Below, piece after piece: positions 1,319-57,305 of a DNA stretch of 64,000 nucleotides. The DNA is from Aldrovandia affinis (taxonomy: Eukaryota; Chordata; Actinopteri; Notacanthiformes; Halosauridae): positions 1,082,807 to 1,146,806 of the forward strand of contig JAINUG010000261.1 in assembly GCA_029706075.1 (NCBI GenBank), read 5' to 3'. The translations under genes and the position numbers were made by a program. Position 1 is the stretch's first letter, and the number at the start of each line of letters is the position of its first letter. The notes under the pieces were generated by a model, which saw only the letters and a list, made by a program, of their open reading frames with translations, did no database searches and was not told the origin of the DNA.

Positions 1319-24664
<23,346 letters not shown>

Positions 24665-28667: not shown

Positions 28668-28904
28668 ACTGGCTGAAAGCAATCGCAAATGCGGGCAAAC
28701 ATACTACTGGTGATGGTGAAATGCATTGAAACTTTGTTTTTGAAGACTCATTTGATCCAGTTCTATAACAAGACAAGCTAACGTAGCTAGCTACATTATG
28801 ATAGTTGGCTAACTAGCTGGTAAATTAAGCAGAATCTAGCCTGTAGCCTGTTTCATTGTATATTATAAGCAGGTTAAGAGGCTAATATCAATCCTGTATG
28901 CTTC

Positions 28905-29370
28905 ATGCTTGTAGAGGGGCCTGTCCTTGTAGCAGAGAGTGAGCAGGAAGAAGATGTGATCGAGGCAGAGAGTGAGCAGGGAGAAGAGGCAGAGAGTAGC
29001 AGTAGGACTAGTGAAGAGGATGATGGAGGTGAAGAGAGCAAGGAAAATGAAGGTTGCTCTGAGGGTAGTGAGAAGGATGAGGAGAAGACAGAGGAGGAAA
29101 TGGAAAAAAGTGAGGGGAATGCAGAAGGGTATTTGCCAGAGGACCCAGGACTATGGCCAGAGAATCTTACTAATCTTACTAATTATTTGTTTAAATGTGG
29201 TATAAGCAGTTCATTAGCGATTACCCTAATAACCACTACAGATTAATGTGTATAGTTGTTGATTCAATTAAAAAAAGAAATCGAAAGATGCGTGAGAGTC
29301 ATGGATCAAGAGGGGAAGGGGGCCCACAAGACTGCATATGTATAGGGCCCAGAATTGTATGCTACAGCCC
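28905..29370 (+). pseudogene. hAT/ZMYM-like transposase N-terminal fragment, arm A
   Basis: A 113-codon frame from 28905 is mostly Glu/Ser acidic repeats (EEDVIEAESEQGEEAESS) and then has LPEDPGLWPENLTN. A DPxLWP motif is usual near the start of hAT transposases of the ZMYM1-like group. The element end GTATGCTACAGCCCTG lies near 29370. The frame stops at 29246, so only a remnant is left. A near-identical copy is in arm B. Confidence 0.5.
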
Positions 29371-29845
29371 TGTTTGTATGTGTATATGTGTGTCACAGGG
29401 GTGACCAGTGCTCCCACTTAATTAATCATTTGTACTCTCCTCTTATTTATTTTCTTAACTTAGTCACTTTTTGTTATGTGTGTGTAAACATTTATGAATC
29501 ATTCGGTGTGAGATCCACATTTTATTTTGCAGTGTTTTCACAAGGCTAAGCATTTATTTCAACGTTTTGGAGGTGCATTGTTTCCCAGTGGGACTGATCC
29601 AAAGGACAGACCTAGTTCTCTTTGTGAGGATAGCCAGCTGTGTGGCGCAGTTAGGTGGGTTTTGAGTCTCTTGCGGAAGATCGCGAGTGATTCCGCGGTC
29701 CTGATCAATTGCGGAAGGGCGAGACCGCGAGGATGGGACAGTCAGTCGGCCAGTGGAGGCGGAGCGGAGGGGTCTGGCTGGAGTGTAGGGTGTGATACAA
29801 TAAGTATATAATTAGAGGTATCATGCTGCAATACGCTGAGTGTAT

Positions 29846-30434
29846 TGTGGCAGCCCATGGGGCTGCACAACAAAATGGCTGCCTGGCCTACAACACATGG
29901 GAGCCAGGAAACACTACATTTCCCAGCAGGCCACAGTCACACCTAAGCAAAGTCAAGGCAACGGGACTAACGAACAGCTGAAGGCCATTTCAAGGCCTAT
30001 TTAAAGGGCTGAATCCCATCATACTGGGAGGAGGAGTAGGAATGTGTGTGGGAAGGAGTTGCTGAGTGTTTGTGAGGAAATTGAAAACTGTGAAGTCGAT
30101 TGACCAGCCAGTATTTGGAGAGAGAGAGTGATTGTTGGAGTGTGTTTTGTGTATGAAATTGGATTGTTTGAGGACCCCCCTTTGGATTTTGATTACGGAC
30201 TGGATTGCAGACTTGGACCTGGATTTTGGATTGGATTGGACATTGACAACGATAAGGATTGCGGACTTTGTGTGTGTTTGTATTCCCCTGAAGACCCCAC
30301 CCTTTGTTTTGTGTTTGTCAGTATTAGAAATAAATCATTGTTTTGTGTTTGAATACTGCCTCCTCTGGGTTCTTGAACTTGCCTACGCCCTCTGCAAGGT
30401 CCGTGAGTGTCGCCCAACCCCTGGGGACACCACA
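29846..30434 (+). mobile_element. Solo LTR (589 bp), arm A
   Basis: Runs from TGTGGCAGCCCATGG to GGGACACCACA. It has a CTATTTAAAG TATA-like box and an AAATAAATC poly(A) signal near the 3' end. The left flank is GTAT; the right flank in this arm was replaced by the next insertion. Arm B has the same LTR with GTAT/ATAC on both sides. Confidence 0.8.
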
Positions 30435-31700
30435 GCAGTGGCAGGCCGTGCATTTCACACCTAGGCCTTCAGTAGTGCTCCGTCTGAATCAATCCACCCC
30501 TCAATAACTATTTTATGGCTATAAAAGCCATCTTATTGTTATGTTTTGAGTGTCTGTTCGGTTTGTTTTTGCACTTTGTTTATTTATCTTTCTTCAGTCA
30601 TGTTTCATTCTCGTTCTGTCATGCACTTCGGGAAATTCTGTTTCGGTTTTCCGTCTTCGTTTCTAATCTCGTTTTTACTTCCTTCTTACTTTCTAATTAC
30701 ACTTTGTATATATTAGTTAGATGTATATAGTACTAACCAACTAATCTACTAACATTAGGGATTTAGATTAAGTTACTAACACTACTAATCACTAATTATC
30801 TCACGCTTCTAACTATTGCTGTCATTCTCTCTCTCTGTACGCTTCTCACGTTCCGCTTTATTCGCACACAGATTTCTTTATGCGTTCCTCCTCTTCCCTA
30901 AAAAACCGAAACACAGAATTTCCCGAAGTGCATGACAAGACAAGGAGAGGAACTCGAATAGGAACAATGACAGACGGGGAACAGAACGAGAATGAAACAT
31001 GACTGAAGAAAGATAAATAAACAAAGTGCAAAAACAAACCGAACAGACAGCCGTTGCCGTTGCATCGCAGATAGATAACTCGTGTATCCAGAATAAATGC
31101 CTTTACTGAATAAACAAACCCGGGGTGCTACAGCTGCAACACACATAACAAAGCATCAATAATAACCTCATAAAATTGCAATATTATTTAGGAAAATAGC
31201 AACATTTTACTCACCAAAAATCCTTATTATTTGTACACAAAATCCATCCTCCTTTCTTTCCTCAAAAAGAGTTCAATTACTCTGTCGTACAGATTATCCG
31301 TGTGTTTCAGTTCCATCAAGAAGTCCTTTTCTATCGCCATCGAAGCTAATGCTGAAAGTCGAGCCTGCCCTGTCGTATTTCTGGCATAAATTTTAATTCT
31401 CTTTAGGGCTGAAAATGTCCGCTCAAATGTCTGAATCACAGACTGATGTTAATTATATTTTGTCTATGAATACTTATTAAATAATTCCAAATGGTCTGTC
31501 CGCTTCCTTTCATAGCTTTTCCCATGGTTGCGGTGCTTCCAGACGTGTATTTTCATATTAAAGCATTTAACCAATCACATTACATCATAGTCAGACACTC
31601 TCTGACTATCCAATCAAAGGGTGTGAATACGCTGACGTTACCTAGGCCTTCTAGAAGGCCTTCGTGTCCCCAACTCAAAATCTGATTGGTTGAAGCAACA
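30435..31700 (-). mobile_element. Arm-A-only insertion: hAT remnant with transposase C-terminus and LTR foldback
   Basis: Absent from arm B. Its - strand at 31227-31439 encodes a hAT dimerisation segment (QTFERTFSALKRIKIYARNT, TGQARLSALASMAIEKD). Between about 30537 and 31060 it carries two inverted copies of the start of the LTR seen complete at 58190, making a foldback with about 100-bp arms. ACCTAGGCCTTC occurs near both ends. No full transposase remains. Confidence 0.65.
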
Positions 31701-32562
31701 ATTTGAACAGAACCACACTGAACTGGACTGGAGCAGGTTGGAGAGGTACCAGAGAGAAGAGGGACCCGTTGACTAGAAGCTTCTTCTACTGCCTTTTACT
31801 TGTTTAGTGACTGGCAAAATAAGAGTTAAGACCATTTTTCTTTGAAGGTGAATAATGCTTTATTTTTAGATATCCATAAATCATTTTTAAAAGTTTAACT
31901 AGATTTGTCAGAGGTGTCATTTCCATTTTAATCAAACAATATTAAGTTCCTTTACTCCTAGGTTTTAACATCGACTGATTAAATAAATGCATGCAAAATG
32001 AGACATTTTACAGGTCAAAGGTGTGGCACCAGGTTATAATTGCTTGTAAGGCACTCTCATTCAACATCTTCTACAAATATATTCTGGAAGCTGTGCCACA
32101 CCCCTTTAAGAGAACATAAAAAAAAAAAAGAAATTACACATTACGTCTCTTGATTTCAAAGCAAGCTGATATGTTTGACAGTCTGCGCATATACCTTTGA
32201 AGAACGCATACACCATCACCAACATAGTGAAAATTGTAGCTGTAGCAAGACAGCTCCCGTTAAGTGGGGATGGTTCAGATAGACAGGTTATGTTTAACAA
32301 ACCTAGTAGAACTACTAATGACAACACACACTTGAAAGTATACATGTATTAGATAAAGAATAAAGAAATTCCTAAGAGTATAAAAAAATTGGAAATTGTA
32401 TTTCTAAGAATATGCTGAGGAACAGTCATGCCAAATGCATTCACCAGTTTGTATGTGTATGTACGTGGTTGTTTCTGTGTGTGAGTGTGTGGATGTGAGT
32501 GTGTGTGTGTGGACTGATCTTTGACATTTGTTTCTAATCCATCTTTGTCTCCTGTGCAATCT
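31700..32562 (-). other. 3' region of the arm-A 694-aa ORF
   Basis: Read on the - strand this follows the ORF stop. It has a TG/CA tract, the small 79-codon frame listed next, and an AATAAA hexamer (TTTATT at 31859-31864 on +). It matches arm B downstream of its ORF closely. Confidence 0.5.
32106..32345 (-). CDS. Small hydrophobic ORF (79 aa), function unknown
   Basis: Starts MYTFKCVLSLVVLLGLLNIT with a signal-peptide-like core, then a second hydrophobic stretch (TATIFTMLVMVYAFF) and a Cys/Gln region. It lies about 220 bases downstream of the 694-aa ORF stop on the same strand. The arm-B copy has a TAA in the equivalent of codon 23 (LS then stop), so it is broken there. It could be a small membrane protein, an env-like remnant, or chance. 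I do not recognise it. Confidence 0.3.
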   Translation of the reverse strand: MYTFKCVLSLVVLLGLLNITCLSEPSPLNGSCLATATIFTMLVMVYAFFKGICADCQTYQLALKSRDVMCNFFFFFMFS

Positions 32563-34647
32563 TTAGCCAAATTGATCTGCATCTTCTGCTGAGATCTCCT
32601 TCAGGATCTCCTGGGGTGCCTTATGGACAGTATCCTCAATAGCCTTCTGTTCTTCTCTGGAAGGAGTTGGCAGCACAGATTTCAGGTTATGATTGATGGA
32701 ATCGATTCTCTTGTCAATCTTTTCGTCAAATTCCTCTCTGTTTCTCTGCACAAGTTCTAGAATCCCTTTCTGGGCTTCTTGGCAACCATTCTCCAGCTGA
32801 AGTCGGGCTTTCTGAAATTGATTACTGCCTACCTCAAGAGACATCAGAGTCGTCAAGTTACTCATGCGATCCATAATGTACTTGTCGGAAACCTGAACAT
32901 ATGTCTCAGAGATCATGTGGACAAGGTGAGCAATATTACTCGCCTGGAATGCCGGGCCATACAGCATGTCTTTAATGAAGTCTAAATGCCGATAGTTTGG
33001 AATGGCAGGAATCGACTCACATTTGGTGACAAAATCTGAGATGTTTACATTCAGACATGTTTCAATTAAATTACTCATCATTTGGAAGAACCTTACCATC
33101 TTGGTCCACTGTTCTCTCACACGTCCCAATGCTTCTAATCCTCTTGCCAGCATTTTTAATGTAGTGTCAAAGTCGATTTTCTCTACTTCAAGGTTTCGCA
33201 TTTCAGTGAGGATGCTATCGAACTCTTGGCTGCATTTTTTCATGTTCTCAAAGGATTTGTGGTATTCAGCTCTGCTGTCTCTCAGCTGCTCCTTGCTTTG
33301 CTCAATTCTCATTTGGTTCATTTGTATTGCGGACCTCAAGATGCTTTCAGAACAGCTTGAATCTTGCTGTGCTTTTGATGCATTTGGGACACTTGGTTGA
33401 AAAGCAGCAGTATTTGTTAGACCATTGCAGGAAATAATAAACTTGTTTGTCTTCTCTACCAGGCCATGTATAGCTGCAGCAATATCTTTCTGGTGGCATG
33501 AGTCCACCTGACTCCTGTTCGCCAACTCCTTTTTCAAAAGGTCACATATGTTCTTCCCTTCCTCGCATAGACTCAGAGCAGGCTTTTTGACTTCACATTC
33601 CTTCTCCTTCTTCAATGAAGCTGCTATGTACTTGAACTGTTTGCCAATGCCTTGTGATTGTGCTTTATTTGTCTTCTGGTCACGTAGCTTAGTCATATCG
33701 ATCTTGTCTTCGGAAACAAACTCCAAAAGTCTTTGTGACAGAGCCATAACAATTCCAGCTTTTGATGCGATGTTCATTGTAGCGCCAGGGTCTGATTGTG
33801 GAGACTGAGATGCTCCTTGTGTTTGGTGTACTTGGGAATTTTTGGATTCTTTGTTTAGCAAGTTTGGTAGAAGGGTTGTCACTTTAACTATCGCATCGCA
33901 TACCGCAAAAGCAATCATATCAGCCCCACTGGGCATAGAGTTGATGGCTTCCATGTAAGTTTCTTGTGATTCTTTCATTTGTTTATTTACTGTTTTATGA
34001 TATTCGTCTGCCATTTCTTTGGCCATTTCCGCAGATTTCTTTTTGAGCTCGGTGTATTGTATGGCCTCAGTAACTTTTTTCAGGCTTTCTTGGTGAGCTG
34101 ATTTGGCAGATGTACAGTTTTCAAGAAGCTCAGAGATTAGTTCAATGATGCTTTGGAAACCATTTTCAACTTCTTTAGCAAAATTGAAGCACTTGCTGGA
34201 AATTACTTTCATTTTTTTCAGCTGAAGGGGAAGCAGTGACTCCACAATTGTTTTATCTTCTTGCATAAGGGTCTGGACCACAAGCTTCACATCGTTTGGT
34301 ATACTTAGGCTCAGGAGACGTATCTTGTCCATGTTTGTATGAGCTGTATTGAAAGCTTTCCATCCATCATTGCAGACCTGCATCAGACAGGCCCGGAAGG
34401 ACTCTGGGTGTTTTATGTGTGTAAAGGTTTTGTTAGGTGTGTACCTGTTGATAGCAAAATCAGTGTTAGCTGAAATAAACACCAGTTCACCCAGTATAGC
34501 AATTGACATTGGCCCTGGGACCAGGAATTCTCCCCAATTGGCATAGGCTCTCATTTTCAGCTCAGTTTCCTCTCGAACATCTTGAGCCCTGTAGATCCTC
34601 TTCACTCCATTGTTCAGTTCAGCAAGGCAGTCACTACTGGAGGCCAT
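32563..34647 (-). CDS. Uncharacterised alpha-helical protein, arm A copy (694 aa)
   Basis: I do not recognise this protein. I use the ATG in AAGATCATGGCC at 34647, just after a splice-acceptor-like TTTTACAG; an in-frame ATG 17 codons upstream lies across that acceptor. The sequence is rich in Glu, Lys, Met and Ser and predicted mostly helical. Residues 1-130 hold a well-kept block (KMRAYANWGEFLVPGPMSIA, then NTDFAINRYTP). Residues 150-235 are heptad-rich. Two hydrophobic stretches (about 241-264 and 290-311) are separated by a polar loop; another long coiled coil covers about 455-560, and the C-terminus is charged. There are no Cys-His boxes, protease or polymerase motifs. The helical-hairpin-helical plan resembles alpha-pore-forming proteins (ClyA/Hbl type), but this is inference only. 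Arm B encodes a 677-aa relative. An LTR lies upstream on the same strand. Confidence 0.7.
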   Translation of the reverse strand: MASSSDCLAELNNGVKRIYRAQDVREETELKMRAYANWGEFLVPGPMSIAILGELVFISANTDFAINRYTPNKTFTHIKHPESFRACLMQVCNDGWKAFNTAHTNMDKIRLLSLSIPNDVKLVVQTLMQEDKTIVESLLPLQLKKMKVISSKCFNFAKEVENGFQSIIELISELLENCTSAKSAHQESLKKVTEAIQYTELKKKSAEMAKEMADEYHKTVNKQMKESQETYMEAINSMPSGADMIAFAVCDAIVKVTTLLPNLLNKESKNSQVHQTQGASQSPQSDPGATMNIASKAGIVMALSQRLLEFVSEDKIDMTKLRDQKTNKAQSQGIGKQFKYIAASLKKEKECEVKKPALSLCEEGKNICDLLKKELANRSQVDSCHQKDIAAAIHGLVEKTNKFIISCNGLTNTAAFQPSVPNASKAQQDSSCSESILRSAIQMNQMRIEQSKEQLRDSRAEYHKSFENMKKCSQEFDSILTEMRNLEVEKIDFDTTLKMLARGLEALGRVREQWTKMVRFFQMMSNLIETCLNVNISDFVTKCESIPAIPNYRHLDFIKDMLYGPAFQASNIAHLVHMISETYVQVSDKYIMDRMSNLTTLMSLEVGSNQFQKARLQLENGCQEAQKGILELVQRNREEFDEKIDKRIDSINHNLKSVLPTPSREEQKAIEDTVHKAPQEILKEISAEDADQFG

Positions 34648-35298
34648 GATCTTTGCTCTCTTATTGAGCAAAAATGTATCTGTAAAAGACAACTGCATTG
34701 GTGTATCTTATCAAGTGAGTACACGTTTACATAAAATAAAATAAAATAATCTGTCCTATATCATATGGCAAGTGTTGCTAAACTCAAATCTAAGGCCCAC
34801 AAGAATATATTTACATTTGTCTAAACCGCCTCAGAATACAATGCTTCTCTTAGGCTAGATGTTTATACCAAACGTTCTGTCATGCATGTCGCAGAAAATT
34901 CTCAGGAGAGCCACATAATACTGAGAAATCGTATATTGTCAAAAATTGTCAAACATTTTTATTTCATAACTTCCCTTGAAAACATGTAACCTTAAATATA
35001 AAGATGTATAATATCTATAGATATGGAAAAAATTTAAAGCACGTGGGTAGTCATAAAGAGTTGACATTTTTTGCCATCATTCAGCTGCCATGTTCCTGGG
35101 CTCTTGTGTAACACATATTCCCATACTTGGTATCAGTATGTAGGGAAGGGAATAGAAATCCCATAGAGCTCTATTCACAATGTGTCTATATCTACACCCA
35201 TGACTCAGCATACCACTCAATGACTCTGTTTAATATCATCGTCTCCCCTGATGCAGTGGCCTCAGCTAAACACATTTCTTCATGCATTGAATGGAATA

Positions 35299-35527
35299 CA
35301 GGTAACTGTCAAAATAAAGTTAATATTTTGGTTACACAGGGCGACACTCAAACAGCCCTTGGCCAGACTAGGAGAGTCCCAGCTGGGTGGAGAGGGCTGT
35401 TGGAAAGGGGAGGGCCAGGCCTATCTGCTGGTACTGGACTTGGCACCCCCTGAAGAGACACTGTACTGCGCCCATTTAAAAGATCCCTAATTTACTCATG
35501 TGTTGCCTTTATTTTGGCAGTTACCTC
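35299..35527. mobile_element. Tc1/mariner-type MITE, same family as 4.3 kb
   Basis: Ends CAGGTAACTGTCAAAATAAA and TTTATTTTGGCAGTTACCTC with TA on both sides (35297-35298, 35528-35529). No coding capacity. Confidence 0.72.
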
Positions 35528-36667
35528 TACATTTTATTGTCAAACTGATGGTGACTTGTTTGTGAAATTGCAAACTTTACTAACAAGCTTGCTTCCTACA
35601 TTGATTAGCTAGCTAGCTAGCAATATATGTATTATCATAAGCACACCGTTAATATTCCTCGCTAGATTACTAAAGTGAATAATTTGTAAAATATCAAGCT
35701 ATCATTAGCTTGCAGTTAGGTAGACAGTTGGCGAGTGAGATTTTTAAATATGGAACGTGGCAAGGTATTGTAGACTATTTTTTCTATAGCCTAGATTAGA
35801 TAATCAAATATTTAATTCCACAGCTGATCAGAATTTTACTTTTACTTAGAACGTTGTTCATGCTTTTTACTCATTTTCCTCCCAATATGGAATGTCCAAT
35901 CGTATTTGCAAGCCACATTTTTTGCATGCCCTGCGATTAATTTGCTGTTGCCGACCTGACGAATGATCCATGTACAGAAGAAGGTGCGTTAATGACATCA
36001 ATGGGTGTTGTTTACATTCTCAGAAACGCTGATGAGAGACTGAGTGAGTGAGTAGCGGAACATTCTGCTTGGACAATGATTTAGAATCGTTTTGAATAAT
36101 CCCACAAATTTGTCAACCAAGTGAGCATTGCATGTTAAATGAACCAATGGTGTAACCGCATATTAAATATTGGGAGGACAGATATGACTGGTTTGAATAT
36201 TGTGGAGGGACATTTCCTCCCCACTCGTTACGCATATCAAATGAACTGCATTTGGCATCAAGGGTTTCATTGCTTGAGAGGTTTATTGCACTTTCAACAT
36301 GTAACTTGTATTATCTGAGACAAATGCAGTTCCATTGTTGAAATCAACATCAAAGGTCAACAGGCATTGTTTAATGCTATCTGGACTGAGCTGTGATTTA
36401 AAGCATCAAGTTACACAGTGTTGGCAAGAATACATTTTAAATTGGATGTAACTGATTTTACTTGCACAACAAATAAAATGTGCAAAACGCAAAGAAATGT
36501 GATGACTCAATCTGTATTTTCCTTATATTTGCAAAGCTGAAATTACGTTTTTGCTGTCTTGATAACTTTTCTCCCTTTTAAAAACATTTTGGATGATCTT
36601 ATTCAGGAGTGTTGTGGTCGATGACAATAGAAGCACCACCTGTGCTAGAAATGTTTTTAAAATCCTA

Positions 36668-36850
36668 TTAGGGGCACGGTCGGAAACCCGTCCTTTCCAG
36701 ACCGACCCTGTTCTGTTAGCCCCGATCGGGAGGTGGCGTGAGGGTGTGAGCTGGCTTGACTTCGCCGTGAAGCGCGGAAGGGTTTCTCCAGAACGTGGGT
36801 GGGCGAATTCCGTCTCGAAGGAAGCGGAGTTCGCTGCCCTCGGGGAATTA
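36668..36850. mobile_element. SINE/MITE fragment related to 21.7 kb
   Basis: Shares GAAACCCGTC, CCAGACCG, GTTAGCCCC, ATCGGGAG and TTTCTCCAGAA in the same order as the intronic copy at 21.7 kb. Confidence 0.5.
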
Positions 36851-37488
36851 TTTATTTATTAGTTTATTTGTAACATGTGTGTGACATGCACAGAGAACAT
36901 GAACAGCCGCAGAAGCAGAGCCCGATGCACTGTACATGTGTATATAGCCGAAGCCGAATGCTTTTCAACACCAGTTCTTTGATGGGCATTGATAGTTAAA
37001 TCAATCAATAAAATAATAAAGTTACATTTTATTAAAGTTAATTTAAAATGAGTGGATATAATGACCAAAAAACAACAGCAACAACAAGCATACATGCAAG
37101 CACGGATCTTGAACCGGGCCGATTGGGCCGTTGCCCATGGGCCCTTGAGCCAAAAGGGCCCTGTCCTGTCACTCGCTCTCACAAATAGACAGTTGAATAC
37201 ACGCAGCGTAACTCCCGCTGAGAAACCGCCTCCCGCCTCCAAGGAATCAACTAGCCTGTGCAACTAGCTAGCGCATCCCACGTTCTCGTTTCCTCCCCCT
37301 CTGATCCACTGAGTTTAACGGTTAAGTTAAAAAAAACAACGTATGTGTTATATTATTGGCTTTCATCTTTATAGGGTGATTTAATTGATGAGGGTACGTC
37401 ATCGCCGGCTTTTACTAAAGTTGGCGTTAGTTAGCTTTGTGTAGAATAAGCGTCTGGGTTTGGTAAAAAAACAAATAGGAAAATCTAA

Positions 37489-37728
37489 ATGGATAGACGG
37501 GGGAGCAGTGGGGGCAAAAAAATAAGGGAAATAAAAAGAGTCTGCAATGCTGCGGCTATTCCCGCAATTTCGAATTATTTTAAACCTGCTGCAGTGGATG
37601 TACGCACTGCCAGCCAGCTCGATAGTGAATTTAGCAGCCAAGCTGTGGCTAGTTCTAGTGCAACGCCGGTGGCTGTGAACGAGGAGGACGTTACCGATGT
37701 TGATGCCAACGACACAGAAGGTAGCTAG
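37489..37728 (+). pseudogene. hAT/ZMYM1-like transposase N-terminal frame
   Basis: Encodes MDRRGSSGGKKIREIKRVCN, then ISNYFKP and acidic/Thr stretches, stopping at TAG. A basic start followed by (I)S.FF/YFKP and a low-complexity region is common in first exons of hAT ZMYM1-like transposons. No downstream catalytic part is found here. Confidence 0.4.
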
Positions 37729-38390
37729 CTAGCTCCTTGTCACTGATGGCAATTGAGTCAGATTTGGTCAGAGGCCTGGATTTTAATGACGTGGTGGACG
37801 CTTTTGCCCAGAGGAAGGCGAGGAAAAAACACATGTTTTAAGGTAAGACAGCTCACTCTTTTACCGCATTTTAATGTTTATTGCTGGTTTAGTAAGTAGC
37901 GCAACAGTTTGTCAATAAGCGTAGTAGCTGTGCCGTCCGCGTGTATAACGTTAGAGTTTCAGTGTGGGACTTGGTGGCAGCATGGTGACCTATATGCATC
38001 AATTTTAGAATCAACGTCCCAGTACTTCGGATCCAGTTAATTCTACAGACCGGTTACTTTGGCCTATAAACGACAAACTTGAAATCACTGTCCCAGTGCT
38101 TCGGGCCCAGCAAATTCCTGCGGTCCAATTACTTTAGGGCCGTTCTCTTTAGCATTACCCTGCCTCTACGCAGAACTACAGAACACTACCTCAGTACGTC
38201 TAGCACAGTATTCCTAAGATCCAGCTGCTTTAGGATCCACAAATTCCAGTAGACTACTTCGGAATTACAACTCCTCCTGCCAGTTACTAAATAAAGTTCC
38301 CAAACAGTGTCCTTTTAATGCTTAGATTCTTTAAAAGAGGGATACTTCTATTTTAAAACCAGCGCTTTAAAGAAAGAAACCAATTTCTTA

Positions 38391-38392
38391 CC
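38391..38392 (-). promoter_or_regulatory. Splice donor of LTR leader, arm A
   Basis: On the - strand the sequence is ATAAAG|GTAAGAAATT, an excellent donor just 3' of the primer-binding site. It would join the U5/PBS exon to the acceptor in front of the 694-aa ORF (34680-34682). Confidence 0.55.
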
Positions 38393-38419
38393 TTTATCAC
38401 GGTTTTCTTCGGAAATTCC

Positions 38420-38437
38420 CTCCTGGCTGGCTCGCCA
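38420..38437 (-). promoter_or_regulatory. tRNA-Arg primer-binding site, arm A
   Basis: On the - strand TGGCGAGCCAGCCAGGAG is the exact complement of the 3' end of vertebrate tRNA-Arg(ACG) plus CCA, as I know that tRNA. It starts two bases after the LTR end, the normal place for a minus-strand primer site. Confidence 0.8.
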
Positions 38438-38439
38438 AT

Positions 38440-38976
38440 TGTAAGAAATACGGCAGCACTCTGATCTTGATGAAGAAGGTTTTATTTCGGTAGCGACAGT
38501 AACAAAGTAAATGACAGGTAATACAAGAATACCAGCAAGCACTCTGGACTCAGTGGAGTTCTTCTGAATGTCCTTCTCCCAACTGAATGACTCTAAATAC
38601 TATTTTTCAGCTTTGTTTTCTGAGGCGGGAAACAGAAATGTGTATACGGAAATAATGTGATTGATTTAAGGAGGCCAAACACTGGCTTCCTTAAATCAAT
38701 CAGTCTGCTCATCACTAGGGGGGGTCTGATTGATTCAGTTCCCGGGGCCTAGCCAGGAAACAGTCTATTGTATTGTTAATCAAGTCTAAATGGTTGGCCT
38801 GAGTAGCCGTTTGATCACCTATCCATGTATTCTACTGGCCATTGTTGGTTTCAGGAGTTTCTCTCTCTTCCTCTTGATCACCTATTCACATGCCAATTAC
38901 TGTCTCCATTTGGCCACACAGATCCCTTGTAATTGTGATATGATTTACCTGTCTGCTTACAGTTCAATATCTTACA
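38440..38976 (-). mobile_element. LTR of tRNA-Arg-primed retroelement, arm A (537 bp)
   Basis: Bounded by TGTAAG and CTTACA inverted ends. On its own strand it has a palindrome in U3 (38658-38702), a TATTTAGAG TATA-like box and AATAAA near the 3' end, followed directly by the primer-binding site. Arm B has the 540-bp counterpart. Snakehead retrovirus is the described fish retrovirus with an arginine tRNA primer site, so a relative is possible. Confidence 0.78.
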
Positions 38977-39348
38977 ACATATATATATATAAATGAAAAC
39001 AAATTGTGGACAAAAAAATGGAAGAATGGACAGACCCCTTTCTTATCCCTGCCCTTATTCTTGTCTGAGTTTATATGGCACAAGCGTTACTAATTCTATA
39101 AACATTTAAGCCCAGTTATGACTACAAAAAATTGTAACAATAGCTTTCAAATTGTAAACATAATGGTAGCTGTTGTTAACTGTTCAATTTATTTCTCTCC
39201 ATTTATCACAAATTAGCTTCCTCCATTTGTGCTCTGCAGCAATTTCGCTTTAGCTGACTTATAGGAAACCTCTCTGGTTTTAACATGAACTAGCCTATTG
39301 AGGGTTCATATGCACAGAGTTGGCAGTGCAGCGGGCTGGCAGTGTAGT

Positions 39349-39590
39349 GTAATGGTTAGGGAGCTGGGCTTGTAACTTGCCCAGGTGGGGCACTGCTGTT
39401 GTACCCTAGAGCAAGGTACTTAACCTAAATTGCTTCAGTAAAATATCCAGCTGTATAAATGGATTGTATGCAAAGAAATGTAAACTGTGAGATAAGAGCA
39501 TCTGCTACATGCCTAAAACGTAAATGTCGCTCTGGATAAGAGTGTCTGCTAAATGCCAAAATGTAAATGTAAATGTAAAAACAATCATTC
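39349..39590 (+). mobile_element. tRNA-headed SINE, B box deleted, arm A
   Basis: Has AGTGTAATGGTTAGGGAGCT (A-box region), CAGCTGTATAAATGGATTGT and the shared tail. Compared with the intact copy at 61.67 kb it lacks the GGTTGCAGGTTCAATCCCC segment, so it should not be transcribed by Pol III. Confidence 0.75.
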
Positions 39591-39779
39591 ACTGGCACAG
39601 CTATCTCACACACCCATTGATCATTACTGAAGGAGTAGTAGTAACAGTCCAACACAATCAAGAGATACTGCTGACCTCTCACAGCTCAAATGGGACGTCA
39701 ATAACAGGGTGCAAAAAGTTCTGATAAGGCTGTTGGGTGGCTCATCCTGCTCATCCTCAACAGAAGGCACTGTTCTAGT

Positions 39780-40310
39780 GTGTGGATGAGCCCCACGGTC
39801 TGCATCCTGTTAAGGCTTTCTGTTTATGTGAAATCTATTTTTACTCTGTCTGTTTTAATCTTCACATCTGTCTCAGACCAGTTTGATTGCTTGGCACTAA
39901 ATGTTCAGGTGGGTTGTACTAATGTCACAGTTGTGGGAGTGTATCGACCCCCAATTGCTCTCCCCTGTGTTATAGTCAATCTCTCTTGCTTATTATCTAC
40001 ATTTCAACATGCTGAAATGCTGATCATGGGTGATTTAAATCTGGATTGGTTATTGGTTATATATATACAGTATAAGGGTATGTATGTTTACATGGGTCTT
40101 GTATATGTGCATGTTTACATACAATAGAGGAACTATATTGATGCAATCTGTATACTTTCTTTTATGAATATTAATACTTCTGTGGTGATCAAATGTATAC
40201 CCCCCCGCCCCATGTTTCATGAAATTTGTGTAGTTATTAAAAAAGATCACTACCCACCCATATTGTATTCTGATGCTGATGTTTGTGCTCATTAAACGGG
40301 TAACAGTAAA
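39780..40310 (+). pseudogene. LINE endonuclease fragment, arm A
   Basis: The frame has NVTVVGVYRPP and EMLIMGDLNLDWL, matching the YRPP and GDLN(x)DW signatures of apurinic-type endonucleases in fish LINEs. It then degrades. Arm B carries the inverse copy. Confidence 0.7.
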
Positions 40311-40833
40311 TAAAATAAATGTTATTACGTCTCACTCATTTGTTCTGTTTGCCTACCTATATCTATGGGGAATATTCTCACTTGGAGATCCATGCCTCCA
40401 AATGAATTCTTGTTCTTTGGCTTTGATCAAGCATGCTATGAGTTTATTCTCCAGAAGGGAGAAGCAGCAGCATTGCTTCAAATATTGATTTACCATGGTC
40501 ATTTATTTTTATTTTATTTTTTTGGCTGCTGTAATCCTGTACATGCGGATTATATGCACCTCGATGGGGAGAAAATCTCTCACTCAGATAACTGAGGTTA
40601 CATAGGTGTTGCACCCTACCTCTAAAATGCATAAAAACAACCGTGGAACAGATGCAAACTGTGGAGCAGATACAGAGGCTCAGGGGGTAGGGATCTGCCT
40701 TTCTCACGTCTCTGTCACAATGTTCCACGCATTGACAACTCTCTGTGTGAAAAAAATACTTCTTTGTCAATCCCTGTTATGAATTCTCCCTTCCTGTTTA
40801 CTAAACCTGAATTGATTAAATGTGCCCAGAACT

Positions 40834-41470
40834 GCTGTTAGATATTTAGAGTAGTTCTCCATCCTAAAATATGCATGTATTTTCATATTGTGCAGGTGTT
40901 GTTCTAGACTTTAGCACAAAATTCACGTCATGCTCATCGATATCAGTACATTTCTTATTGACTGGCAGATCAGTTGTCTATTCTGGCGGGTGCAAGAGCG
41001 CAGGATCTTCAAATGATGATACTGACGCGCTGCCTACTGGCCTAAATCAACACAAAACCAACAACGAACATGCATTCTGTATTAGAGGATATATTTCCAC
41101 TGTCCAAAAAGGTGGATTTACACGTACAAAATCTAAATTTCATCGCGTAAATTATAAAAGGAAAACGCATATTTTCCATGCAAAGCGGATGAGAAGAACA
41201 GATCCGTTGAATGAGCGAGTTCACGGTTCAGTAAAACAGATTTAAATGTGTTTATATGTCCACCTACTGGGAAAAGTGGGAAGTGCAGCCCGCGCTGTAT
41301 TTTCACAGAATCCAAATAGACCAAACTATCATAATTATGTTCTTCATTTGGCAGAAACGGAATTATGGAGGGGAACCTCCGTTAACCCGAGCGCGTGTCA
41401 TATAGCACTCATACCAAAATGTTATTGTATTTCGTATACATGTCACGCTATTTTTTGATTGGAGGAATAT
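40834..41470. other. Spacer stretch before the U1 gene
   Basis: A 124-codon frame at 40871-41245 shows no domain that I recognise. I see no clear repeat here. The distal promoter element of U1 begins after it. Confidence 0.4.
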
Positions 41471-49320: not shown

Positions 49321-49984
49321 TTAATGTTATATAATGCCTCTGTCAGACTTCGCTTAGAGTACTGTGTGCAGTTCTGGGCACATTTAATCTATTCAGGTTT
49401 AGTAAACAGAGACTAAGGGGAGATTTTATTTAGGTATTTAAATTCATAACAGGGATTGACAAAGAAGTATTTTTTTCACACAGAGAGTTGTCAACGCGTG
49501 GAACATTGTGACAGAGACGTGAGAAAGGCAGATCCCTACCCCCTGAGCCTCTGTATCTGCTCCACAGTTTGCATCTGTTCCACTGTTGTTTTTATGCATT
49601 TTAGAGGTAGGGTGCAACACCTATGTAACCTCAGTTATCTGAGTGAGAGATTCTCTCTCCATCGAGGTGCATATAATCCGCATGTACAGGATTACAGCAG
49701 CCAAAAAAATAAAAATAAAATAAATGACCATGGTAAATCAATATTTGAAGCAATGCTGCTGCTTCTCCCTTCTGGAGAATAAACTCATAGCATGCTTGAT
49801 CAAAGCCAAAGAACAAGAATTCATTTGGAGGCATGGATCTCCAAGTGAGAATATTCCCCATAGAGATAGGTATACCCCATTTAGCATGGGGGATGTGGGC
49901 AAACAGAACAAACGAGTGAGACGTAATAACATTTATTTTATTTACTGTTACCCGTTTAATGAGCACAAACATGAACAGCATCAG

Positions 49985-50493
49985 AATACAATATGGGTGG
50001 GTAGTGATCTTCCCCCCCCCCCTTTTTTTTTTTTTATAACTACACAAATTTCATGAAACATGGGGCGGGGGGGTATACATTTGATCACCACAGAAGTATT
50101 AATATTCATAAAAGAAAGTACAGATTGCATCAATATAGTTCCTCTATTGTATGTAAACATGCACATATACAAGACCCATGTAAACATACATACCCTTATA
50201 CTGTATATATATATAACCAATAACCAATCCAGATTTAAATCACCCATGATCAGCATTTCAGCATGTTGAAATGTAGATAATAAGCAAGAGAGATTGACTA
50301 TAACACAGGGGAGAGCAATTGGGGGTCGATACACTCCCACAACTGTGACATTAGTACAACCCACCTGAACATTTAGTGCCAAGCAATCAAACTGGTCTGA
50401 GACAGATGTGAAGATTAAAACAGACAGAGTAAAAATAGATTTCACATAAACAGAAAGCCTTAACAGGATGCAGACCGTGGGGCTCATCCACAC
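49985..50493 (-). pseudogene. LINE endonuclease fragment, arm B
   Basis: Inverse copy of the arm-A fragment, with VYRPPI and GDLNLDWL on the - strand. This copy stays open further (170 codons) and has a poly-C/poly-T stretch near 50010-50035 not seen in A. Confidence 0.7.
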
Positions 50494-50689
50494 ACTAGAA
50501 CAGTGCCTTCTGTTGAGGATGAGCAGGATGAGCCACCCAACAGCCTTATCAGAACTTTTTGCACCCTGTTATTGACGTCCCATTTGAGCTGTGAGAGGTC
50601 AGCAGTATCTCTTGATTGTGTTGGACTGTTACTACTACTCCTTCAGTAATGATCAATGGGTGTGTGAGATAGCTGTGCCAGTGAATGAT

Positions 50690-50945
50690 TGTTTTTACAT
50701 TTACATTTACATTTTGGCATTTAGCAGACACTCTTATCCAGAGCGACATTTACGTTTTAGGCATGTAGCAGATGCTCTTATCTCACAGTTTACATTTCTT
50801 TGCATACAATCCATTTATACAGCTGGATATTTTACTGAAGCAATTTAGGTTAAGTACCTTGCTCTAGGGTACAACAGCAGTGCCCCACCTGGGCAAGTTA
50901 CAAGCCCAGCTCCCTAACCATTACACTACACTGCCAGCCCGCTGC
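50690..50945 (-). mobile_element. tRNA-headed SINE, B box deleted, arm B
   Basis: Inverse copy of 39349-39590 with the same missing B-box segment, so the deletion came before the inverted duplication. Confidence 0.75.
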
Positions 50946-51309
50946 ACTGCCAACTCTGTGCATATGAACCCTCAATAGGCTAGTTCATGTTAAAACCAGA
51001 GAGGTTTCCTATAAGTCAGCTAAAGCAAAATTGCTGCAGAGCACAAATGGAGGAAGCTAATTTTCAATAAACTTGTGATAAATGGAGAGAAATAAATTGA
51101 ACAGTTAACAACAGCTACCATTATGTTTACAATTTGAAAGCTATTGTTACAATTTTTTGTAGTCATAACTGGGCTTAAATGTTTATAGAATTAGTAATGC
51201 TTGTGCCATATAAACTCAGACAAGAATAAGGGCAGGGATAAGAAAGGGGTCTGTCCATTCTTCCATTTTTTTGTCCACAATTTGTTTTCATTTATATATA
51301 TATATATGT

Positions 51310-51849
51310 TGTAAGATATTGAACTGTAAGCAGACAGGTAAATCACAATATCACAATTACAAGGGATCTGTGTGGCCAAATGGAGACAGTAATTGGCATG
51401 TGAATAGGTGATCAAGAGGAAGAGAGAGAAACTCCTGAAACCAACAATGGCCAGTAGAATACATGGATAGGTGATCAAACGGCTACTCAGGCCAACCATT
51501 TAGACTTGATTAACAATACAATAGACTGTTTCCTGGCTAGGCCCCGGGAACTGAATCAATCAGACCCCCCCTAGTGATGAGCAGACTGATTGATTTAAGG
51601 AAGCCAGTGTTTGGCCTCCTTAAATCAATCACATTATTTCCATATACACATTTCTGTTTCCCGCCTCAGAAAACAAAGCTGAAAAATAGTATTTAGAGTC
51701 ATTCAGTTGGGAGAAGGACATTCAGACGAACTCCACTGAGTCCAGAGTGCTTGCTGGTATTCTTGTATTACCTGTCATTTACTTTGTTACTGTCGCTACC
51801 GAAATAAAACCTTCTTCATCAAGATCAGAGTGCTGCCGTATTTCTTACA
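51310..51849 (+). mobile_element. LTR of tRNA-Arg-primed retroelement, arm B (540 bp)
   Basis: Begins TGTAAGATATTG and ends TATTTCTTACA (6-bp inverse ends). It contains a U3 palindrome (51587-51631), a TATTTA box near 51690 and AATAAA at 51803-51808, and is followed two bases later by the primer-binding site. No second copy of this LTR is found 3' of the ORF, so the element is incomplete or was rebuilt. Confidence 0.8.
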
Positions 51850-51851
51850 AT

Positions 51852-51869
51852 TGGCGAGCCAGCCAGGAG
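51852..51869 (+). promoter_or_regulatory. tRNA-Arg primer-binding site, arm B
   Basis: TGGCGAGCCAGCCAGGAG, complementary to the 3' end of tRNA-Arg(ACG) with CCA. Identical to the arm-A site. Confidence 0.82.
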
Positions 51870-51898
51870 GGAATTTCCGAAGAAAACCGTGGATAAAG

Positions 51899-52584
51899 GT
51901 AACTAATTGGTTTCTTTCTTTAAAGTGCTGGTTTTAAAATAGGAAGTATCCCCTCTTTTAAAGAATCTAAGCATTAAAAGGACACTGTTTGGGAACTTTA
52001 TTTAGTAACTGGCAGGAGGAGTTGTAATTCCGAAGTAGTCTACTGGAATTTGTGGATCCTAAAGCAGCTGGATCTTAGGAATACTGTGCTAGACGTACTG
52101 AGGTAGTGTTCTGTAGTTCTGCGTAGAGGCAGGGTAATGCTAAAGAGAACGGCCCTAAAGTAATTGGACCGTAGGAATTTGCTGGGCCCGAAGCACTGGG
52201 ACAGTGATTTCAAGTTTGTCGTTTATAGGCCGAAAGTAACCGGTCTGTAGAATTAACTGGATCCGAAGTACTGGGACTTTGATTCTAAAATTGATGCATA
52301 ATTCCATATTCCAATAAGTAATTGGAATAGTTTGAGTTGGCTGTGTCCGAAGCACTGGAACAGCAACTACCGTTTATTGTGTGTAAATTCCTAAAGTAAC
52401 TGGAATACTGGAGTTTGCTGGGCCCGAAGTACTGGGGAAGAAACTCTGTAGAGCCTGTCATATCCTAAGGTAACTGGGTAGTGGGTGTCGAAATATCTTA
52501 AAGTGATTAGTGATATAGGACAGATTATTTTATGTAAACGTGTACTCACTTGATAAGATACACCAATGCACTTGTCTTTTACAG
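51899..52584 (+). other. Leader intron of the LTR unit, arm B
   Basis: Donor GATAAAG|GTAACT at 51898/51899 and acceptor GTCTTTTACAG at 52584 frame a 686-base leader that would be spliced out. The acceptor lies 31 bases before the ATG of the long ORF. Arm A has the stronger donor GTAAGA. This is how retroviruses make subgenomic messages, here pointing at the cargo ORF. Confidence 0.55.
52058..52500 (+). repeat. Degenerate ~78-bp tandem repeats in the leader
   Basis: Six units start with CCTAAAGTAA(C/T)TGG or close variants at about 52058, 52154, 52230, 52311, 52390 and 52464, and most hold GCTGGGCCCGAAG(C/T)ACTGGGA. Units differ by many substitutions. Arm A keeps only the part matching 52058-52300. 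Confidence 0.7.
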
Positions 52585-52615
52585 ATTACATTTTTTCCAT
52601 AAGAGAGCAAAGATC

Positions 52616-54649
52616 ATGGCCACCAGAAGTGACTGTCTTGCTAAACTGAACAATGGAGTGAAGAAGATCTACAGGGCTCAAGATGTTCGAGAGGAAACTG
52701 AGCTGAAAATGAGAGCCTATGCCAATTGGGGAGAATTCCTGGTTCCAGGGCCAATGTCAATAGCTGTACTGGGTGAACTGGTGTTTATTTCAGCAAACAC
52801 TGATTTTGCTATCAATAGGTACACACCTAACAAAACCTATACACACATAAAACACCCAGAGTCCTTCCGGGCCTGTCTGATGCAGGTCTGCAATGATGGA
52901 TGGAAAGCTTTCAATACAGCTCATACAAACATGGACAAGATACGTCTCCTGAGCCTAAGCATACCAAACGATGTGAAGCTTGTGGTCCAGACCCTTATGC
53001 AAGAAGATAAAACAATTGTGGAGACACTGCTTCCCCTTCAGCTGAAAAAGATGAAAGACATTTCTAGCAAGTGCTTCGGTTTGGCTGAAGAAGTTGAAAA
53101 TGGTTTCCAAAGCATCATTGAACTAATCTCTGAGCTTCTTGAAAACTGTACATCTGCCAAATCAGCTCACCAAGAAAGCCTGAAAAAGGTTACTGAGGCC
53201 ATACAATACACCGAGCTCAAAAAGAAATCTGCGGAAATGGCCAAAGAAATGGCAGACGAATATCATAAAACAGTAAATAAACAAATGGAAGAATCACAAG
53301 AAACTTACATGGAAGCCATCAACTCTATGCCCAGTGGGGCTAATCTGATTGCTTTTGCGACATGCGATGCGATAGTTAAAGTGACAACCCATCTACCAAA
53401 CTTGCTAAACATAATATCAGGCCCCGGCGCAATAATGAACATCGCATCAAAATCTGGAATTGTTACGGCTCTGTCACAATGTCTTTTGGAGTTTGTTTCC
53501 GAAGACAAGATGGATATGACTAAGCTACGTGACCAAAAGACAAATAAAACACAATCAAACAGCATTGGCAAACTGTTCAAGCACATAGCAGCTTTATTGA
53601 AGAATGAGAAGGAATGTGAAGTCAAAAAGCCTGCTCTGAGTCTATGCGAGGAAGGGAAGAACATATGTGACCTTTTGCAAAAGGAATTGGCCAACGGGAG
53701 TCAGGTGGAGTCATCCCACCAGGAAGCTATTCCTGCAGCTATACATGACCTGGTAGAGAAGGCAAACAAGTTTAGTATTTCCTGCAATGGTCTAACAAAT
53801 ACTGCTGCTTTTCAACCAAGTGTCCCAAATGCATCAAAAGCACAGCAAGATTCAAGCTGTTCTGAAAGCGTCTTGAGCTCCGCAATACAAATGAGTCAAA
53901 TGAGAATTGAGCAAAGCAAGGAGCAGCTGAGAGACAGCAGAGCAGAATACCACAAATCCTTTGAGAACATGAAAAAATGCACCCAAGAGTTCGATAGCAT
54001 CCTCACTGAAATGCGAAACCTTGAAGTAGAGGAAATCGACTTCGACACTACAATAAAAATTCTGGCAAGAGGATTAGAAGCATTGGGAAGTGTGAGAGAA
54101 CAGTGGACCAAGATGGTAAAGTTCTTCCAAATGATCACTAATTTGATTGAAACATGTCTGAATGTAAACGTCTCTGATTTTGTCACAAAATGTGAGTCGA
54201 TTCCTGCCATTCCAAACTATCGGCATTTAGACTTCATTAAAGACATGGTGTATGGCCCGGCATTCCAGGCGAGTAATATTGCTCAACTTGTCCACATGAT
54301 CTCTGAGACATATGTTCAGGTTTCAGACAAGTACCTGATGGATCGCATGAGTAACTTGACGACTCTGATGTCACTTGAGGTAGGCAGCAATCAATTTGTG
54401 AAAGCCCGACTTGAGCTGCAGAAAGGTTGCCAAGAAGCCCAGAAAGGGATTCTAGAACTTGTGCAGAGAAGCAGAGAGGAATTTGACGAAAAGATTGACA
54501 AGAGAATCGATTCCATCAATCATAACCTGAAATCTGTGCTGCCAACTCCTTCCAGAGAAGAACAGAAGGCTATTGAGGATACTGTCCATAAGGCGCCCCA
54601 GGAGATCCTGAAGGAGATATCAGCAGAAGATGCAGATCAATTTGGCTAA
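52616..54649 (+). CDS. Uncharacterised alpha-helical protein, arm B copy (677 aa)
   Basis: The full-length open counterpart of the arm-A protein; start chosen at ATCATGGCC, 31 bases after the acceptor. It begins MATRSDCLAKLNNGVKKIYR and ends SAEDADQFG. The first 240 residues and the C-terminal 200 are nearly the same as in A, with scattered substitutions. The main difference is that 17 residues between the two hydrophobic stretches are missing here (PNLLNIISGPGAIMNIAS). Codons stay open throughout despite many base changes between copies, which suggests constraint or a recent split. No gag zinc knuckle, protease, polymerase or integrase motif is found. Upstream on the same strand are LTR, tRNA-Arg primer site and leader; downstream is AATAAA at 55331. 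Family unknown to me; a retroelement-borne cargo, a divergent coiled-coil Gag or a captured host gene are all possible. Confidence 0.72.
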   Translation: MATRSDCLAKLNNGVKKIYRAQDVREETELKMRAYANWGEFLVPGPMSIAVLGELVFISANTDFAINRYTPNKTYTHIKHPESFRACLMQVCNDGWKAFNTAHTNMDKIRLLSLSIPNDVKLVVQTLMQEDKTIVETLLPLQLKKMKDISSKCFGLAEEVENGFQSIIELISELLENCTSAKSAHQESLKKVTEAIQYTELKKKSAEMAKEMADEYHKTVNKQMEESQETYMEAINSMPSGANLIAFATCDAIVKVTTHLPNLLNIISGPGAIMNIASKSGIVTALSQCLLEFVSEDKMDMTKLRDQKTNKTQSNSIGKLFKHIAALLKNEKECEVKKPALSLCEEGKNICDLLQKELANGSQVESSHQEAIPAAIHDLVEKANKFSISCNGLTNTAAFQPSVPNASKAQQDSSCSESVLSSAIQMSQMRIEQSKEQLRDSRAEYHKSFENMKKCTQEFDSILTEMRNLEVEEIDFDTTIKILARGLEALGSVREQWTKMVKFFQMITNLIETCLNVNVSDFVTKCESIPAIPNYRHLDFIKDMVYGPAFQASNIAQLVHMISETYVQVSDKYLMDRMSNLTTLMSLEVGSNQFVKARLELQKGCQEAQKGILELVQRSREEFDEKIDKRIDSINHNLKSVLPTPSREEQKAIEDTVHKAPQEILKEISAEDADQFG

Positions 54650-55499
54650 AGATTGCACAGGAGACAAAGATCAGTCCACACACACACACCCACACACACT
54701 CACATCCACACACTCACACACAGAAACAACCACGTACATACACACAAACTGGTGAATGCATTTGTCATGACTGTTCCTCAGCATATTCTTAGAAATACAA
54801 TTTCCAATTTTTTTATACTCTTAAGAATTTCTTTATTCTTTATCTAATACATGTATACTTTTAAGTGTGTGTTGTCATTAGTAGTTCCACTAGGTTTGTT
54901 AAACATAACCTGTCTATCTTAACCATCCCCACTTAACGGGACTTGTCTTGCTACAGCTACAATTTTCACTATGTTGGTGATGGTGTATGCGTTCTTCAAA
55001 GGTATATGCGCAGACTGTGAAACATATAAGCTTGCTTTGAAATCAAGAGACGTAATGTGTAATTTCTTATTTTTTTAATGTTATCTTAAAGGGGTGTGGC
55101 ACAGCTTCCAGAATATATTTGTAGAAGATGTTGAATGAGAGTGCCTTACAAGCAATTATAACCTGATGCCACACCTTTGACCTGTAAAATGTCTCATTTT
55201 TCCTGCATTTATTTAGTCAGTCGATGTTAAAACCTAGGAGTAAAGGAACTTAATATTGTTTGATTAAAATGGAAATGACCCCTCTGACAAATCTAGTTAA
55301 AGTTTTAAAAATGATTTATGGATATCTAAAAATAAAGGATTATTCACCTTCAAAGAAAAATGGTCTTAACTCTTATTTTGCCAGTCACTAAACAAGGAAA
55401 AGGCAGTAGAAGAAGCTACTAGTCAACAAGTCCCTCTTCTCCCTTGTACCTCTCCAACCTGCTCCAGTCCAGTTCAGTGTTGTTCTGTTCGGTATATAC
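54650..55499 (+). other. 3' region of the arm-B ORF
   Basis: A CA-rich tract, a broken copy of the small hydrophobic frame (54850-54925, stop TAA), an AATAAA at 55331-55336 and T-rich sequence. No further gene. Confidence 0.5.
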
Positions 55500-56080
55500 T
55501 GTGGTGTCCCCAGCGGTTGGGCGACACTCACGGACCTTGCAGAGGGCGTAGGCAAGTTCAAGAACCCAGAGGAGGCAGTATTCAAACACAAAACAATGAT
55601 TTATTTCTAATACTGACAAACACAAAACAAAGGGTGGGGTCTTCAGGGGAATACAAACACACACAAAGTCCGCAATCCTTATCGTTGTCAATGTCCAATC
55701 CAATCCAGGTCCAAGTCCGCAATCCAGTCCGTAATCAAAATCCAAAGGGGGGTCCTCAAACAATCCAATTTCATACACAAAACACACTCCAACAATCACT
55801 CTCTCTCTCCAAATACTGGCTGGTCAATCAACTTCACCGTTTTCAATTTCCTCACAAACACTCAGCAACTCCTTCCCACACACGTTCCTACTCCTCTCCC
55901 AGTATGATGGGATTCAGCCCTTTAAATAGGCCTTGAAATGGCCTTCAGCTGTTCGTTAGTCCCGTTGCCTTGACTTTGCTCAGGTGTGACTGTGGCCTGC
56001 TGGGAAATGTAGTGTTTCCTGGCTCCCATGTGTTGTAGGCCAGGCAGCCATTTTGTTGTGCAGCCCCTTGGGCTGCCACA
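55500..56080 (-). mobile_element. Solo LTR (581 bp), arm B, with 4-bp target duplication
   Basis: On the - strand it begins TGTGGCAGCCCAAGG and ends GGACACCACA, flanked by GTAT on each side (ATAC at 55496-55499 and 56081-56084). The TATA-like box and AAATAAATC are as in arm A. It points opposite to the long ORF. Confidence 0.82.
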
Positions 56081-56728
56081 ATACACTCAGCGTATTGCAG
56101 CATGATATCTCTAATTAAATACTTATTGTATCACACCCTACACTCCAGCCAGACCCCTCCGCTCCGCCTCCACTGGCCGACTGACTGTCCCATCCTCGCG
56201 GTCTCGCCCTTCCGCAATTGATCAGGACCGCGGAATCACTCGCGATCTTCCGCAAGAGACTCAAAACCCACCTAACTGCGCCACACAGCTGGCTATCCTC
56301 ACAAAGAGAACTAGATCTGTCCTTTGGATCAGTCCCACTGGGAAACAACGCACCTCCAAAACGTTGAAATAAATGCTTAGCCTTGTGAAAACACTGCAAA
56401 ATAAAATGTGGAAAATCACATCAAAAAAACACCTCACTCTAACACCTGATGATACAAATCGGATCTCACACCGAATGATTCATAAATGTTTACACACACA
56501 TAACAAAAAGTGACTAAGTTAAGAAAATAAATAAGAGGAGAGTACAAATGATTAATTAAGTGGGAGCACTGGTCACCCCTGTGACACACATATACACATA
56601 CAAACAGGGCCGTAGCATACAATTCTGGGCCCTATACATATGCAGTCTTGTGGGCCCCCTTCCCCTCTTGATCCATGACTCTCACGCATCTTTAGATTTT
56701 TTTTTAATTGAATCAACAACTATACACA

Positions 56729-57070
56729 TTAATCTGTAGTGGTTATTAGGGTAATCGCTAATGAACTGCTTATACCACATTTAAACAAATAATTAGTAAG
56801 ATTAGTAAGATTCTCTGGCCATAGTCCTGGGTCCTCTGGCAAATACCCTTCTGCATTCCCTTCACTTTTTTCCATTTCCTCCTCTGTCTTCTCCTCATCC
56901 TTCTCACTACCCTCAGAGCAACCTTCATTTTCCTTGCTCTCTTCACCTCCATCATCCTCTTCACTAGTCCTACTGCTACTCTCTGCCTCTTCTCCCTGCT
57001 CACTCTCTGCCTCGATCACATCTTCTTCCTGCTCACTCTCTGCTACAAGGACAGGCCCCTGTACAAGCAT
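56729..57070 (-). pseudogene. hAT/ZMYM-like N-terminal fragment, arm B
   Basis: Inverse copy of the 113-codon acidic frame of arm A, differing by very few residues (for example Q for E at position 4), with the same DPGLWPENLTN and stop. Confidence 0.5.
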
Positions 57071-57305
57071 GACATACAGGATTGATATTAGCCTCTTAAC
57101 CTGCTTATAATATACAATTAAACAGGCTACAGGCTAGATTCTGCTTAATTTACCAGCTAGCTAGCCAACTATCATAATGTAGCTAGCTACGTTAGCTTGT
57201 CTTGTTATAGAACTGCATCAAATGAGTCTTCAAAAACAACGTTTCAATGCATTTCACCATCACCAGTAGTATGTTTGCCCGCATTTGCGATTGCTTTCAG
57301 CCAGT

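Follow-up and report, generated by a model that had tools for sequence, protein, structure and literature searches.

The 64,000-nucleotide window analysed here, from the halosaur Aldrovandia affinis (contig JAINUG010000261.1, positions 1,082,807 to 1,146,806 of the forward strand), carries on its plus strand a retroviral long terminal repeat (LTR) and leader placed ahead of a long intact open reading frame (ORF). The LTR (51310..51849) is 540 bp long, has TGTAAG...CTTACA ends, and contains TATTTA at 51690 and AATAAA at 51803. It is followed by a 663-bp retroviral leader with imperfect internal repeats (51850..52512), in which an 18-nt primer binding site (51852..51869) starts 2 nt past the LTR. 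A predicted intron (51899..52584) runs from a retroviral donor, AAG/GTAACT with its G at 51899, to an acceptor of the host gene, TTTTACAG/A; direct reading of the window at this acceptor (CTTTTACAG/A) puts the first exon base at 52585, 31 nt ahead of the ATG at 52616. The segment 52513..52615 comprises the last part of the host gene's native 5' intron, the acceptor and the 31 nt of 5' untranslated region (UTR), and the ORF itself (52616..54649) is free of stops over 677 codons on direct translation. By sequence comparison and structural modelling, codons 238–416 (53327..53863) form a variable insert between two predicted long helices.

Much of this had been outlined in a preliminary description of the locus, and direct reading confirmed the length and ends of the LTR, the donor, the leader, the acceptor 31 nt before the ATG and the intact frame. 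As also stated there, no LTR was found downstream of the gene in the window; beyond the LTR of an inverted copy described below, a search of the window for further LTR copies (7-base words, E≤0.01) returned only a short inverted repeat within the LTR itself. The primer site stands as a sequence, the reverse complement of the 18-mer being the 3' end of two published CCA-tailed vertebrate small RNAs; its primer we presume, as did the preliminary description, to be tRNA-Arg(ACG). The exact site was seen only in four gene-linked copies, four other leader-bearing elements differing by at least one base, and together with its context it had no exact match in IMG/VR; the primer-site wording looked for was absent from the lokiretrovirus paper.

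The LTR is a member of a dispersed family of fish endogenous retroviruses. A genome search gave 422 candidate places, of which the best 40 were scored; these matches run the full length of the LTR, or close to it, at 91–100% identity, and the four LTRs linked to copies of the gene are the top four among the matches listed. Sequence was fetched for 30 loci, of which 26 have no linked copy of the gene. Target duplications of 4 bp flank the LTR at 14 of these 26, amounting to only about 10 independent sites because some have common flanks; a G-rich (GGGGGAC-type) tract lies directly 5' at five, as expected ahead of 3' LTRs; leader sequence follows the LTR at four; and three have neither target duplication, G-rich tract nor leader. 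The donor core AAAGGTAAGA is common to all four leader-bearing loci, none of which has the exact primer site. Because the LTR family is dispersed and the same leader and donor follow at four unrelated loci, the LTR-leader arrangement is more than chance. Beside other LTR copies we found a CCHC zinc knuckle (29.5 bits against a cut-off of 20.8), which also has nucleocapsid matches in PDB; a below cut-off integrase C-terminal match; and a frame of ~260 codons whose sequence looks like a Gag coiled coil, with no Pfam match above cut-off. On contigs C1792, C1967 and C824, LTR pairs stand 4.2–4.8 kb apart, a spacing that suggests shortened members of the retrovirus family, perhaps non-autonomous ones.

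In the Aldrovandia affinis genome the ORF is present in at least 13 long copies, besides fragments. Upstream DNA was read for 13 copies, the two in the window and 11 others (~10 kb for ten, and 1.4 kb for the one that lies at a contig end), and an LTR lies upstream in four: both window copies and one on each of contigs C1787 and C1899. Other LTR-ORF units, for which the preliminary description proposed a search, do exist. The remaining nine have no LTR and are preceded by DNA homologous to a segment, here called X (34764..37992, minus strand), that runs from leader to gene in the minus-strand copy of the window; the 3' two-thirds or so of X is the native upstream DNA found before these nine copies. 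In copies outside the window the acceptor junction aligns over 74–103 nt, and the acceptor 15-mer is identical in six of six non-LTR copies compared (31 nt from the ATG in five, 15 nt in one), so the acceptor is the host gene's own. The window plus copy, C1787 and C1899 all keep the 663-bp leader entire and join it to the gene at one identical point (52512), and their native upstream DNA is gone; in the minus copy a partial leader is followed by X and then the gene. The block shared with the plus copy continues 5' of the LTR to window position 51100 in C1787, 50850 in C1899 and 49368 in the window pair. That it passes the LTR end to differing points argues that the copies arose by DNA duplication and not by LTR-bounded insertion, and on this sequence comparison the four LTR-linked copies are descendants of one insertion copied with its flanks. 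A candidate native first exon at window 35524, found through conserved donors in X and aligned in five of the nine upstream stretches, was rejected because it is located in an apparent repeat; no native first exon is assigned.

The two window copies sit in one inverted duplication (left arm 28668..40835, right arm 49368..57305, by self-comparison) and so are not independent. The copy on the minus strand has a 99% identical LTR (38440..38976) and a second intact ORF, of 694 codons (32563..34647); the earlier statement that two copies stay open is thus right for both frames, which nevertheless count as a single duplicated case. Divergence within the pair is uneven, at ~0.2% around the LTR and its flank and 4.7% over the gene and 3' flank, and the plus copy and C1787 differ by ~1.2% over 51100–53305 and then by 11% over the next 200 aligned bases. 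From this unevenness we infer recombination or gene conversion between paralogues. The insert makes up 179 of the 677 residues yet holds 29 of the 61 residue differences between the window copies (Fisher p 0.0002). The ratio of nonsynonymous to synonymous change (dN/dS) for the plus copy and C1787 is 0.48 overall (0.59 in the N-terminal part, 0.89 in the insert, 0.17 in the C-terminal part); for the window pair it is 0.68, rising to 1.9 in the insert, where synonymous changes are few. Regional values are noisy, as one non-LTR pair reaches 2.79 in the C-terminal part, where it has 1.5 synonymous changes. All four LTR-linked ORFs are open; of the non-LTR copies, eight were translated, with C1530, which a contig end truncates, left out. 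The frame is broken in four of the eight and open in the other four, one of which has a changed end.

Relatives of the ORF are widespread. At least 79 are among the matches listed, mostly near full length and at 34–47% identity, from sharks, chimaera, sturgeon, bichir, coelacanth, teleosts, turtles, geckos and one soft coral. A coral query adds other corals, horseshoe crab, abalone, chytrid and blastoclad fungi and a few ascomycetes, all more distant, and a profile headed by fungal members brings in further ascomycetes; these searches scored the best candidates, and a group outside the matches listed is not thereby absent. Both window ORFs stay below every Pfam and NCBIfam cut-off and match no Gag family, and the weak Pfam matches of single family members (best 2e-4) are chance-like. 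Viral and prokaryotic origins were both considered and rejected: 130 stretches in IMG/VR and 86 in GTDB genomes matched a pattern, and in neither set was a relative confirmed. A BFVD fold search with the ORF model gave nothing at E≤1e-3. Judged by its sequence relatives, the ORF is of host origin and belongs to a eukaryotic gene family that is old and has no Pfam match.

The preliminary description had left a choice between a highly divergent Gag-like protein and a cargo gene under retroviral-type splicing. A single long helical ORF at the gag position behind an LTR and leader does recall the LTR-plus-single-ORF elements BHIKHARI and crestin of zebrafish, and BHIKHARI-1 is one 617-aa Gag ORF without pol (PMC10996621). 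Nine copies of the halosaur gene, however, have no LTR, its homologues extend from vertebrates to corals and fungi, no Gag family matches it, its predicted fold is ClyA-like (see below), and a zinc knuckle of the same retrovirus family lies beside other LTR copies. The existence of gene copies at non-LTR loci with other upstream DNA, together with the taxonomic spread, refutes a Gag or BHIKHARI identity, and we regard a divergent retroviral Gag as almost certainly the wrong reading. The second option is half right, in that a host gene does stand behind a retroviral front end, and the recurrence of LTR, primer site and leader before it at four places could be read as a retrovirus that captured the gene and moves it. 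The join, however, was made at the DNA level: the gene retains its own intron end and acceptor, the shared block runs 5' of the LTR to different points, and no downstream LTR was found in the window. Transduced cargo was rejected because the copies are not LTR-bounded and the host intron end is kept; it is, in our view, very improbable.

We then considered how the fused gene could be expressed. If transcription is assumed to start 26–30 nt past TATTTA, exon 1 would end at 51898 and be joined to 52585. The 5' UTR predicted after this splice has zero upstream ATGs in all four LTR-linked copies; there are four in the plus copy's unspliced leader, and shuffles of that copy's spliced UTR have 3.7 on average, with 1.3% having none. 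Scored with general splice-site frequencies, the plus-copy acceptor is the best of 113 AG sites and its donor tied second of 87 GT sites, and the minus-copy donor is the best of 236 GT sites; donor and acceptor are kept in all four LTR-linked copies. According to PMC12193657, the 518-bp LTR of snakehead retrovirus (SnRV), joined to the next 87 bp, can drive reporter expression in fish cells, so LTRs of such kind can act as promoters.

The protein was compared with known structures. Two AlphaFold models align best with alpha-pore-forming proteins of the ClyA/HBL/YaxA type, which occupy rows 1–14 and rows 1–15 of two structure comparisons; a fold outside these lists is not thereby excluded. The predicted helical bundle has two long helices with a variable, partly hydrophobic insert between them, and in the model the helix order and the position of the insert agree with ClyA-type proteins. 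A profile of 23 family members searched against PDB sequences gave eight matches at E≤1, with no ClyA-type chain among them, and family members had no Pfam match of ClyA type. Among the titles and abstract openings listed in a literature search, which mostly did not extend to subscription papers, there was no report of an animal ClyA-like family, and nothing on zgc 162509 was listed; in a coral annotation paper, ClyA/HlyE occurs just in a cited reference on a bacterial toxin. On the models, the predicted fold is ClyA-like, a bundle of helices with a variable insert; the protein would most likely act at membranes.

Elsewhere in the window, the spacer of the inverted duplication contains a full-length match to U1 small nuclear RNA (41684–41847, plus strand; Rfam RF00003, 170 bits), and a Tc1-like transposase frame with DDE_3 and HTH_Tnp_Tc3_2 matches lies at 46857–47591 (plus strand). 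Six matches to UnaL2, the 3' element of an eel long interspersed nuclear element (10088–10228, 20711–20764, 26610–26663, 46384–46436, 61828–61881), fit an elopomorph genome, and 22889–23834 is a tandem array with several frames open on both strands. Ten reading frames (five of eight in X, four in the spacer and one downstream) had no Pfam match at E≤0.1.

To account for the arrangement, we propose that a provirus of the dispersed fish endogenous retrovirus family would have inserted upstream of one copy of the multicopy host gene, and that a deletion, the probable joining event, would have removed the remaining provirus with the gene's native upstream DNA and joined the end of the leader (52512) to what is left of the gene's native 5' intron, its final ~70 nt. 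Transcription would most likely start in the LTR, and splicing of the retroviral donor to the host acceptor would remove the leader, giving a 5' UTR without upstream ATGs. DNA duplication would then have carried the fused module to four places or more, its coding part recombining with other paralogues. To the account as a whole, in which a retroviral promoter and splice donor serve a host gene that encodes a protein of ClyA-like predicted fold, we give an even chance.

Several points weigh against it. The minus-copy acceptor ranks fourth of 283 AG sites, the donor is weakest in the plus copy (GTAACT, with GTAAGA in the other three LTR-linked copies), the exact AATAAA context is present in three of four gene-linked LTRs and absent in C1787, and four of four against four of eight open frames are numbers too small to carry much weight. 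As coding parts are exchanged among paralogues, much of the coding divergence may predate the fusion, so that dN/dS below 1 is no demonstration of selection after the arrival of the LTR. For the fold, the root-mean-square deviation is above 15 in 5 of 14 and 2 of 15 ClyA-type rows of the two comparisons, vinculin/talin-type rows score close in the second, and Foldseek gave no match at E≤1e-3 for the ORF model. The LTR might be a passive fossil, the fused copies being silent or starting elsewhere and their frames open through youth or gene conversion; the small difference across the LTR and flank of the window pair (~0.2%) and the exchange of coding parts between copies would fit this, against which stand the loss of native upstream DNA in three of the four LTR-linked copies, the retention of donor and acceptor in all four, and the zero upstream ATGs after predicted splicing. 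We hold such a fossil possible, if somewhat doubtful. The protein, in turn, might merely look like ClyA and be an ordinary cytoplasmic scaffold with no membrane role, a prospect that we place just short of even; the leading rows of both structure comparisons and the fit of helix order and insert position speak against it.

The locus offers a traceable case in which a retroviral front end took the place of a host gene's upstream region and then spread by duplication; the nine non-LTR copies of this genome serve as controls. The gene family itself is the most interesting part of the finding: it is broadly conserved in eukaryotes and has no Pfam match, and its predicted fold, nearest to bacterial pore formers, makes ClyA-type proteins in animals directly testable. 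A bolder extension, which we consider unlikely, would be that an unrecognised intracellular ClyA-type family that perforates membranes is common to fungi and to animals, with fishes and reptiles among the latter; that in a halosaur the native upstream region of one branch is lost and a retroviral promoter and splice donor now control it; and that this promoter plus the N-terminal half have been shuffled onto different, fast-changing insert and C-terminal parts, like a defence gene cluster.

The ClyA-type fold is a bundle of five helices that has a stalk and, between helices 4 and 5, an insert. With the ClyA-like proteins (ClyA, HBL/NHE, Cry6Aa, YaxAB/XaxAB, AhlB, Smh and Mak; the family is described in PMC6162564 and PMC5935710), the halosaur ORF shares a predicted helical bundle that includes two long helices and an insert between them. 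It differs in being eukaryotic and in its length, 677 residues against ~250–400 in the solved chains listed, and its family has no detectable sequence match to them. Compared by description and not by sequence, SnRV has an LTR of similar length (518 bp against 540 bp) and reportedly uses a tRNA-Arg primer; the gene-linked halosaur copies differ from it in having no pol or env. LTRs also serve as alternative promoters, as stated in abstracts such as that of PMC4379568, and host genes with LTR-derived promoters or first exons resemble the halosaur unit in the sense LTR upstream and the LTR-side predicted donor able to reach a host acceptor. The halosaur unit differs from such co-option in keeping the primer site and full leader, in the loss of native upstream DNA in three copies, and in having itself been duplicated. 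BHIKHARI and crestin, lokiretrovirus relatives of zebrafish, are described in PMC10996621 as an LTR followed by one long helical ORF with no pol, an arrangement that the halosaur unit likewise shows. The BHIKHARI ORFs, however, are Gag with a capsid domain, whereas the halosaur ORF is a host gene with copies that stand apart from any LTR.
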